NCBI RefSeq assembly: GCF_030817475.1
Contig: NZ_JAUSZJ010000002.1
Coordinates: 5,842,626 to 5,906,625 of the forward strand
Direction: 5' to 3'
DNA: 64,000 nucleotides
Origin: Streptomyces sp. V2I9
Lineage (GTDB): Bacteria; Actinomycetota; Actinomycetes; Streptomycetales; Streptomycetaceae
Part shown: positions 41,969 to 44,944 of the stretch, piece by piece
Layout of the letters: each line of letters starts with the position of its first letter
Position numbering within the stretch: position 1 is the first letter of the stretch
Translations under genes and position numbers: made by a program
Notes under the pieces: model-generated
Database searches by the model: none
What the model was told of the DNA's origin: nothing
Seen by the model: only the letters and a program-made list of their open reading frames with translations

Positions 41969-42685
41969 TCAGCCGTGCAGTCCGCATTCGGTCTTGCCGC
42001 GCCCGGCCCAGCGTCCGGCCCTGGCGTCCTCGCCCTCCAGCACCCGGCGGGTGCAGGGCGCGCAGCCGACGGAGGCGTAGCCGTCCATCAGCAGCGGGTT
42101 GGTGAGCACCCCGTGCTCGGCGACGTAGGCGTCCACGTCGTCCCGGGTCCAGCGGGCGATGGGGGAGACCTTCACCTTGCGGCGCTTGGCGTCCCAGCCC
42201 ACGACCGGGGTGTTCGCTCGGGTCGGGGACTCGTCGCGGCGCAGGCCCGTCGCCCACGCCGCGTACGCGGTGAGACCGTCCTCCAACGGCTTCACCTTCC
42301 GCAGCGCGCAGCACAGGTCCGGGTCGCGGTCGTGCAGCTTCGCGCCGTACTCGGCGTCCTGCTCGGCGACCGTCTGCCGCGGGGTGATCGTGAGGACACG
42401 GACGTCCATCACCGCGTCCACCGCGTCGCGGGTCCCGATGGTCTCCGGGAAGTGGTAGCCGGTGTCCAGGAAGACCACGTCCACGCCCGGCATCACTCGG
42501 GAGGCCAGGTGCGCGACCACCGCGTCCTCCATCGAGGAGGTGACGCAGAAGCGCGGCCCGAAGGTCTCGGCGGCCCATCGCAGGATCTCGGCGGCGGAGG
42601 CGTCCTCCAGCTCCCGTCCGGCCCGCTCGGCCAGCTCCCGGAGTTCCTCGCCGGTCAGCTCGTCGGATAGCTGAGTGCCCGTCAT
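41969..42685 (-). CDS. cysH: Phosphoadenylyl/adenylyl-sulfate reductase, [4Fe-4S] APS type
   Basis: This 238-residue enzyme reduces activated sulfate to sulfite. Four cysteines, C125-C126 (DLCCALRK) and C208/C211 (GCAPC), are the [4Fe-4S] ligands that distinguish APS reductases from the cluster-free PAPS reductases of enterics. The catalytic cysteine is C234 in KTECGLH. The ATG overlaps the stop of the upstream small gene (ATGA). Confidence 0.95.
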   Translation of the reverse strand: MTGTQLSDELTGEELRELAERAGRELEDASAAEILRWAAETFGPRFCVTSSMEDAVVAHLASRVMPGVDVVFLDTGYHFPETIGTRDAVDAVMDVRVLTITPRQTVAEQDAEYGAKLHDRDPDLCCALRKVKPLEDGLTAYAAWATGLRRDESPTRANTPVVGWDAKRRKVKVSPIARWTRDDVDAYVAEHGVLTNPLLMDGYASVGCAPCTRRVLEGEDARAGRWAGRGKTECGLHG

Positions 42686-42861
42686 ATCCGGTCCCCTTCG
42701 CCGTCGTTGCGCTGTACGCCCCGAGCCAGCAGGCCCAGGAACCTCAGCTGGAACGCACGGTTGCAGGAGGCGCATTCCCAGGCGCCGTGGCCGGTCTCGT
42801 TGGGGCGCAGGTCCTCGTCGCCGCAGTACGGGCAGTGGAACGGGGCGGCTCGCTCGCTCAT
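42682..42861 (-). CDS. 59-residue zinc-ribbon protein between cysI and cysH
   Basis: A 59-codon gene (MSERAAPFHCPYCGDEDLRP...) lies exactly between cysI and cysH. It overlaps the cysI stop codon at its start and the cysH start codon at its end, both as ATGA. C10-x2-C13 and C30-x2-C33 form a zinc-ribbon (or rubredoxin-like metal) site separated by 16 residues. The C-terminus (FQLRFLGLLARGVQRND) may be an amphipathic helix. The position inside a tightly coupled operon argues that it is translated and works in sulfite or APS reduction, perhaps as a small metal-binding or electron-transfer partner, but this is inference. Confidence 0.85.
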   Translation of the reverse strand: MSERAAPFHCPYCGDEDLRPNETGHGAWECASCNRAFQLRFLGLLARGVQRNDGEGDRI

Positions 42862-44555
42862 GACAGCGACTCCGCACCGGCACGCGCCGCCCAGGTGGCG
42901 AACCGCTCGCCGTCCTCACGTTCCTCCTGGAAGCGGCCGAGCACCCGCTCGACGTAGTCCGGCAGTTCGGCCGACGTGACCTTGAGGCCGCGGACCTTGC
43001 GGCCGAACCCGGCCTCCAGGCCGAGCGCACCGCCGAGGTGCACCTGGTAGCCCTCGACCTGGTCGCCGTTCGCGTCCAGCATCAACTGGCCCTTGAGGCC
43101 GATGTCCGCGACCTGGATACGGGCGCAGGCGTTCGGGCAGCCGTTGATGTTGATGGTGATGGGGTGGTCGAACTCCGGGAGGCGACGCTCCAGTTCGTCG
43201 ATGAGGGCCGCACCGCGCGCCTTCGTCTCGACGATCGCCAGCTTGCAGAACTCGATGCCGGTGCAGGCCATCGTGCCGCGCCGGAAGGGGGAGGGGGTGA
43301 CCTTGAGGTCGAGGGCCTCCAGGCCGGCGACCAGGGAGTCGACCTGCTCCTCGGCCACGTCCAGCACGATCATCTTCTGCTCGGCGGTGGTCCGCACCCG
43401 GCCGGAGCCGTGCTGGTCCGCCAGGTCCGCGATCTTGGTGAGCGTGGAGCCGTCGACCCGGCCCACCCGCGCGGCGAAACCGACGTAGAAGCGGCCGTCC
43501 TTCTGCCGGTGCACCCCGAGGTGGTCGCGCCAGGTCCCGGCGGGCTGCTCGGGCGCGGGCCCGTCGATCAGCTCGCGCTTGAGGTACTCGTCCTGGAGGA
43601 CCTGGCGGAACTTCTCGGGCCCCCAGTCCGCGACCAGGAACTTCAGCCGGGCGCGGGTGCGCAGCCGCCGGTAGCCGTAGTCGCGGAAGATCCCGATGAC
43701 CCCGCCGTACACGTCGGGCACCTCGTCCAGCGGTACCCAGGCGCCGAGCCGCACCCCGAGCTTCGGGTTGGTGGAGAGGCCGCCGCCGACCCAGAGGTCG
43801 AAGCCGGGGCCGTGCTCCGGGTGGTTCACGCCGACGAAGGCGACGTCGTTGATCTCGTGCGCCACGTCCAGATGTGGGGAGCCGGAGATCGCCGTCTTGA
43901 ACTTGCGGGGCAGGTTGGAGAAGTCGGGGTTGCCGATGAACCGGCGCTGGATCTCGTCGATGGCCGGGGTGCCGTCGATGATCTCGTTCTCCGCGACGCC
44001 CGCCACGGGGGAGCCGAGGATGACGCGCGGCGTGTCGCCGCACGCCTCGGTGGTGGACAGGCCCACCGCTTCGAGCCGCCGCCAGATCTCCGGCACGTCC
44101 TCGATGCGGATCCAGTGGTACTGCACGTTCTGCCGGTCGGTGAGGTCCGCCGTGCCGCGCGCGAACTCCTGGGAGATCTCCCCGATCACCCGCAGCTGGC
44201 GGGTGGTCAGCCGGCCGCCGTCGATGCGGACCCGCAGCATGAAGTGCTTGTCGTCCAGCTCCTCCGGCTCCAGCACGGCCGTCTTGCCGCCGTCGATACC
44301 GGGCTTGCGCTGGGTGTACAGGCCCCACCAGCGCATGCGTCCGCGCAGGTCGTTCGGGTCGATGGAGTCGAAGCCGCGCTGGGAGTAGATCGTCTCAATA
44401 CGTGTCCGTACGTTGAGACCGTCGTCGTCCTTCTTGAACTGCTCGTTCCCGTTCAGGGGGGTGTGGTGGCCCATGGCCCACTGGCCCTCGCCACGGTGGC
44501 GTCCGGCCTTGCGGCGGGGCGTGGCGGGCGCAGGCTGATCCGGGGTGGCGGCCAT
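42858..44555 (-). CDS. cysI: Assimilatory sulfite reductase (ferredoxin), siroheme-[4Fe-4S]
   Basis: This 565-residue monomeric enzyme reduces sulfite to sulfide with six electrons from ferredoxin. The four cluster/siroheme cysteines are C431 and C437 (CTGIEFC) and C473 and C477 (NGCPNAC). The nitrite/sulfite reductase half-domains are repeated, as usual (DRQNVQYHWIRIEDVPEIW; TAEQKMIVLDVAE). The ATG at 44555 follows GAAGGACG. It heads the operon and is preceded by a leader peptide gene. A nitrite reductase of the same superfamily is excluded mainly by context. Confidence 0.95.
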   Translation of the reverse strand: MAATPDQPAPATPRRKAGRHRGEGQWAMGHHTPLNGNEQFKKDDDGLNVRTRIETIYSQRGFDSIDPNDLRGRMRWWGLYTQRKPGIDGGKTAVLEPEELDDKHFMLRVRIDGGRLTTRQLRVIGEISQEFARGTADLTDRQNVQYHWIRIEDVPEIWRRLEAVGLSTTEACGDTPRVILGSPVAGVAENEIIDGTPAIDEIQRRFIGNPDFSNLPRKFKTAISGSPHLDVAHEINDVAFVGVNHPEHGPGFDLWVGGGLSTNPKLGVRLGAWVPLDEVPDVYGGVIGIFRDYGYRRLRTRARLKFLVADWGPEKFRQVLQDEYLKRELIDGPAPEQPAGTWRDHLGVHRQKDGRFYVGFAARVGRVDGSTLTKIADLADQHGSGRVRTTAEQKMIVLDVAEEQVDSLVAGLEALDLKVTPSPFRRGTMACTGIEFCKLAIVETKARGAALIDELERRLPEFDHPITININGCPNACARIQVADIGLKGQLMLDANGDQVEGYQVHLGGALGLEAGFGRKVRGLKVTSAELPDYVERVLGRFQEEREDGERFATWAARAGAESLS

Positions 44556-44670
44556 GACAATACGTCCTTCGGGACTGCGGGAGGGCGGCTCTGAGCGGCA
44601 CACTCGCGCTGAGGCGCGGCGGTGCGCAGGGCGATTCAGAGGGAAGAAGAAGGCGGCGGTGCTGGGTCTC

Positions 44671-44754
44671 TCAGCTCACCGGACAGATGGCGCTGGACAT
44701 GCGGCCGAGGTCGACGTGGCGTCGACTCACCAAGGCAATTCCAGTTCCAGGCAT
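44671..44754 (-). CDS. Cysteine-containing leader peptide of the sulfur operon
   Basis: A 27-codon ORF on the minus strand, ending 115 bp before cysI, encodes a peptide starting MPGTGIALVSRRHVDLGR and ending SSAICPVS. SRRHVDLxR followed by a cysteine is the signature of leader peptides found before sulfur genes in Streptomyces. The Cys codon (TGT, rare in this genome) sits four codons before the stop. It probably senses cysteine availability through ribosome stalling and controls readthrough into cysI. Confidence 0.85.
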   Translation of the reverse strand: MPGTGIALVSRRHVDLGRMSSAICPVS

Positions 44755-44785
44755 GACGGAAGCGTGTCACGCGCCTCTCGGGGCA

Positions 44786-44810
44786 GTCCACCACTATCCG
44801 CTATGTGGAC
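44786..44810 (-). promoter_or_regulatory. Inverted repeat upstream of the cys leader
   Basis: GTCCAC (44786-44791) and GTGGAC (44805-44810) flank a 13-base AT-richer centre containing GATAGT, a -10-like hexamer in minus orientation. It lies 32 bp upstream of the leader ATG and may be the promoter with an operator for a sulfur regulator. Confidence 0.5.
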
Positions 44811-44944
44811 GTGTATGTCCCGAAGAGTGAGACGGTGTGGTGTCGGTCACGCACAGCGGTGCTGGCATTGGGTGGTAAATCGCCCATAAGGGGTCTGGTG
44901 GGGTCGGGGGGCACCCGACCGGCCACCGCCGGGGGGCGGAAAGC

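Follow-up and report, generated by a model that had tools for sequence, protein, structure and literature searches.

A short ORF upstream of cysI, a member of the RRHVDL family of actinobacterial leader peptides, probably acts in cis, in our judgement, as a cysteine sensor in which ribosome pausing would raise expression of the cysI operon. The ORF lies in a 64,000-nucleotide stretch of the Streptomyces sp. V2I9 genome (the window), at positions 44671 to 44754 of the minus strand (44754-44671), and runs from an ATG start to a TGA stop, encoding the 27-residue peptide MPGTGIALVSRRHVDLGRMSSAICPVS. Its only Cys codon, TGT, is codon 24 (44683-44685), three codons ahead of the stop, and 115 nt separate the leader stop from the ATG of cysI (44555-44553) on the same strand. 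The original prediction had described a 27-codon ORF with a single near-terminal TGT codon 115 bp from cysI, and in these particulars it was exact, with only the strand omitted. Strong support for its central claim, that the sulfur operon has a cysteine leader peptide here, comes from the family match, the position of the mycobacterial nirA uORF, the sulfur genes downstream, and the codon-locked Cys. The gene that follows, cysI (42858..44555, minus), encodes a NirA/SirA-type ferredoxin sulfite/nitrite reductase (PRK09566, 390 bits; CysI, 178 bits [NCBIfam]; both below the cut-offs), and its orthologue stands downstream of the mycobacterial leader.

Leader family, conservation, and promoter

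Comparison with the NCBIfam models revealed a match of the leader to NF042934 ("putative leader peptide"; cis_reg_atten), with 32.9 bits against a cut-off of 27 (E, 3.4e-8), covering model positions 2 to 19 of 19. No feature of the window leader speaks against membership, and it is also a short ORF adjoining a sulfur/cysteine gene. NF042934 is a general model and asserts no tested function for the window leader. Judged by its sequence, the window ORF is a real cysteine leader peptide and falls under this model; leader peptides of this kind are already known in databases, and the window leader adds to them. Since curated NCBI models now call the leader, with NF042934 above its cut-off, the earlier remark that the ORF is too short for routine gene calling is outdated. 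Rfam and Pfam searches with the leader returned no match.

In order to follow the leader through the genus, the regions upstream of cysI were located via the CysI N-terminus in 80 further same-genus genomes, or 81 with that of the window, whose CysI N-terminus matched at genome position 5887180. Every one of the 81 primary cysI loci had the leader, its motif reading HVDL in 78, HVDF in one, and HVDH in two. One of the same-genus genomes also carries a second, divergent copy of the sulfite/nitrite reductase, and this copy is without a leader. Over codons 8 to 24, parsimony assigned 54 synonymous and 22 nonsynonymous changes to 79 cysI leaders, giving an N/S of 0.41 compared with 2.4 to 3.0 expected; these counts are approximate because the tree was built from the leader locus itself. 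Residues S10, R11, R12, H13, V14, D15, R18, S21, and C24 never changed across the cysI leaders, and codons 11 to 15 of the RRHVDL core (codons 11 to 16; 44707..44724, minus) were free of nonsynonymous change in the 79 sequences. Codon 12 always specifies Arg and takes all four CGN forms, with 19 synonymous changes and no nonsynonymous one. Of 65 unique cysI leaders, 8 have another Cys, at codon 17. This pattern of substitution indicates that the leader core codons are under protein-level purifying selection.

These data bear on two explanations that dispense with a functional peptide. GC-rich DNA abounds in short ORFs (10 kb here contains 83 of 20 amino acids or more), and the window ORF could have arisen by chance; the 81/81 conservation, the curated family match, and the purifying selection refute this, leaving it a negligible probability. 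The second explanation places the conservation chiefly in an RNA or DNA element, with the peptide as a by-product. It would account for codons 9, 13, 14, and 24, which show zero synonymous changes in the cysI leaders, and for the ability of codons 10 to 15 to form a hairpin. It is, however, at odds with the use of all four CGN codons around a fixed Arg at codon 12 and with the low N/S, and the peptide is common to different leaders despite their differing nucleotide sequences, so we consider this explanation very improbable. The candidate hairpin itself, GTCGACG-CCA-CGTCGAC (44710..44726, minus), has a 7-bp stem in the RRHVD codons, and the free third base of codon 12 falls in its loop. Codon 11 invariably ends in a purine (CGG or CGA, never the common CGC), and codon 10 is almost always AGT, which makes up 2% of Ser codons. 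This odd choice at codons 10 and 11 is weakly suggestive of the leader hairpin; codon preference could also explain it.

Ahead of the leader, the arrangement TGGACT-N18-CACGCT-TCCGTC-ATG is conserved in the genus. It comprises a putative -35 element, TGGACT (44785..44790, minus; a conserved TGGACtg column block), an 18-bp spacer, and a putative -10 element, CACGCT (44761..44766, minus), six bases before the ATG; CACGCTtCCgtC-ATG is conserved in 78 cysI leaders. Among 65 other leaders, the commonest place for a TANNNT hexamer is -13/-12 from the start, with 19 cases there and 0 to 5 at any other offset. With a -10 element six or seven bases from the start codon, a ribosome-binding site would not fit, and the mRNA is therefore predicted to be leaderless, with the cysI transcript beginning at the A of the leader ATG, as in mycobacteria. 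Tandem palindromes of the form GTCTC-N7-GRGAC-N6-GTCC-NNAT..GGA lie upstream of the leader promoter (44791-44833, minus) and are well conserved in the genus. They are likely an operator for a sulfur regulator, and we take their GAC-N6-GTC core to resemble the McbR box of Corynebacterium. The sequence GTCCACATAGCGG from the palindrome region was found again ahead of the cysO-cysM leader.

Codon usage at the sensor cysteine

The sensor Cys codon (44683..44685, minus) lies nine codons past the motif Asp (Asp+9) and is TGT in 79 of the 79 cysI leaders of the tree. Across distinct leaders of the family, the Cys at this position is encoded by TGT in 62 of 63 cases, whereas TGT accounts for 29 of 196 Cys codons (14.8%) in the downstream genes. 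At their other Cys positions, these leaders mostly use TGC, as in 23 of 24 cases at Asp+2. Of nine further leaders from other genera, eight also had TGT at Asp+9; in the remaining one, a variant, TGT lies at Asp+7. The binomial value for this lock, 2e-50, is too strong because the leaders share ancestry. All seven leaders of the window genome have TGT, for which the chance is about 2e-6 (0.148^7) if independent origin of the codons is assumed. Within a partial coverage of the literature, we know of no earlier report of a TGT lock at Asp+9, and on these sequence comparisons it appears to be new here. Four family leaders are without the sensor Cys, ending before the stop in ..SAMGSQG, ..SSAY, ..CSAI, and ..SSAY; they precede glutathione-S-transferase-like genes (read from sequence) and may be decayed or differently tuned copies.

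Conservation of the leader extends far beyond the Cys codon, to all the other invariant residues from S10 to S21 named above, and the motif is retained across many downstream genes. This would be expected of nascent-peptide arrest, in which the invariant RRHVDLxRxxSAxC in the exit tunnel would halt the ribosome on a metabolite, with the Cys merely part of the motif. Arrest by sequence alone, however, needs no locked TGT over TGC, and the mycobacterial members depend on cysteine runs; we think arrest of this kind unlikely. The reading that we prefer remains that of a cysteine sensor acting at the TGT codon. How one codon might suffice is a matter for a more speculative proposal, to which we give similarly little credence: a lone UGU, which the Cys tRNA decodes through G-U wobble, might, in its fixed RRHVDLxRxxSAx-Cys nascent-peptide context, leave the ribosome hypersensitive to a drop in Cys-tRNA charging or to the loss of a sulfur-containing tRNA modification. 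If this were true, one codon would do the job of the codon run in other attenuators. The position-specific TGT lock offers a sharp and cheap test of a single codon as a sensor.

The segment between the leader and cysI

In the favored mechanism, the first ribosome would load directly onto a leaderless mRNA starting at the leader ATG. When charged Cys-tRNA is scarce, it would pause at the single TGT three codons before the stop, and the pause would change the state of the downstream RNA, giving higher expression of cysI and the remaining sulfate-assimilation operon; with ample cysteine, the ribosome would finish and depart, and cysI would stay low. Three elements of this scheme are inferred: that the ribosome pauses at TGT, which way the response runs, and that control, as reported for mycobacteria, falls on translation initiation rather than on transcription. 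The original prediction held that the segment between leader and cysI can fold and that ribosome stalling gates cysI through this folding. The first part is true of the segment, although it is not distinctive, as any GC-rich segment folds; the second found no support in our folding tests and stays a transfer from the mycobacterial system. The reading of the ORF as a cysteine leader is, on our analysis, probably right in kind.

A consensus fold of the leader plus the segment to cysI gave no strong conserved structure. The cysI ribosome-binding site, AAGGAC, is predicted to be paired (p ~0.9) in a candidate hairpin, GTCC-CGAA-GGAC (44564..44575, minus), which is found only in the larger clade and is missing in others. 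Stalling was modelled by blocking a ribosome footprint at the Cys codon, and it left the accessibility of the cysI SD unchanged (mean of 4.32 kcal/mol free versus 4.24 kcal/mol stalled). This counts against the sensor model; the test was equally flat for the mycobacterial relatives, however, and a test that is blind there too argues only weakly against translational control. A second candidate hairpin joins the leader tail to the sequence right after the stop (44656..44684, minus). Here the cognate sequences beat permuted ones in 993 of 1,000 cases; the effect is small (0.46 kcal/mol), and the permutations ignore relatedness. A few loci, inspected by eye, had suggested that the leader tail (TGT-CCG) pairs with the cysI SD; this was rejected, with a cognate value of -9.78 kcal/mol versus -10.03 kcal/mol permuted (rank, 0.90) and a family-wide mean rank of 0.44 over 60 loci. 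That this pairing is not above controls also weighs against the sensor model. It looks good only for cysteine dioxygenase leaders and partly for cysO leaders.

No intrinsic terminator was found between the leader and cysI, a difference from the classical transcription attenuator. The same sensor could nevertheless act on transcription if, once the ribosome is off the leader, Rho binds the C-rich, G-poor RNA ahead of cysI and terminates transcription early, an outcome blocked by a paused ribosome or by refolding. The composition of the post-leader segment is consistent with this (genus means of C, 0.44, and G, 0.26, compared with C, 0.36, and G, 0.38, in the upstream flank), its C/G ratio being 1.69 on average and never under 1.39. 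The missing intrinsic terminator points the same way, and Rho was proposed for mycobacterial cys leaders by Seliverstov in 2005 (PMC1262725). On the other hand, C-richness by itself is weak evidence, and a ribosome paused at codon 24 would shield only the beginning of the segment. Moreover, a 2026 paper cites the mycobacterial work as a case of translation attenuation (PMC13236596). We regard an output through Rho as rather unlikely and retain translational control as the working model.

Regulated genes and comparison with known leader systems

The window genome contains five NF042934 matches above the cut-off and two more slightly under it. These seven leaders, the window's included, all precede sulfur or cysteine genes, namely those for a cysO-like protein with cysM, cysteine dioxygenase (PF05995), a sulfatase, cysI, a 3-mercaptopyruvate/thiosulfate sulfurtransferase, a dicarboxylate-type symporter, and a flavin reductase (read from sequence). 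Related genomes have further leaders before SfnG, SsuE, SsuA-type, FMN-dependent monooxygenase, and similar sulfur-scavenging genes. The seven leaders of one genome could act together. Because cysteine dioxygenase degrades cysteine, a leader before its gene is a misfit with simple cysteine-starvation induction and, thus, a challenge to the sensor model in that form; along with the locked TGT, it is a part of this system worth following.

Cysteine dioxygenase is preceded by a family leader in six genomes of the genus and by a different leader in one genome of another family. In the six genus leaders, the tail CCGTCCTG is complementary to CAGGACGG at the SD of the gene. Two genomes have a family leader ahead of an apparent ROK-type regulator gene (read from the sequence of one), presumably a regulator of the same type as CysR in Corynebacterium. 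Between cysI and cysH, a 59-amino-acid Cys-containing protein with CPYC and CASC motifs is encoded (42682-42861, minus). SCO6101, its likely Streptomyces coelicolor counterpart, has been reported to be essential for methionine production (PMC11356490).

Among Streptomyces systems, the trpL and leuL attenuators also consist of a leaderless short ORF with codons for the operon product (PMC8079986). Several classical Streptomyces attenuators have terminator hairpins, whereas none was found at the window leader. A survey of Streptomyces lividans described eight leaders, none of them for cysteine (PMC8079986). Ms5788A (NF042933), the uORF of cysA2/sseA, belongs to the same wider family, and its counterpart in the window genome precedes the sulfurtransferase (41.9 bits); it is another leader of another operon, and the window peptide is not matched by NF042933.

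The comparison with Ms4527A (NF042936), the uORF of nirA/Msmeg_4527 in Mycobacterium, is more extensive. The two leaders share the place before a nirA/sirA-type reductase, a gap of 114 to 116 nt, and an IALV.RRH.DL.R core, and both are predicted to be leaderless. In mycobacteria-like genomes, LVARRHIDLKRVCSCCCLP stands 114 to 116 nt before the orthologous reductase. The Ms4527A model gives this peptide 57.7 bits and that of the window 28.2 bits, the latter under the 45-bit cut-off. Ms4527A has three or four Cys residues, whereas the window leader has one and so does not share its Cys-rich C terminus. Of 81 sampled genera of the class, 39 had candidates by the Ms4527A model (E <= 0.001), many of these candidates weak, and most of those that were read precede the same reductase. 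The mycobacterial uORF set of Canestrari (2020), nirA/Msmeg_4527 included, is reportedly cysteine responsive. Shell et al. (2015) identified the small ORF of nirA/Msmeg_4527 as a conserved leaderless uORF and one example of the cysteine-rich leaderless uORFs that are ribosome occupied in M. smegmatis (PMC4633059). The 2026 paper, citing Canestrari 2020, states that translation attenuation was shown for cysteine genes of M. smegmatis (PMC13236596). Taken together, the window leader is likely an orthologue of the Ms4527A leader that works alike, and through it the cysteine leader system that was tested in mycobacteria would reach the main Streptomyces sulfur operon.
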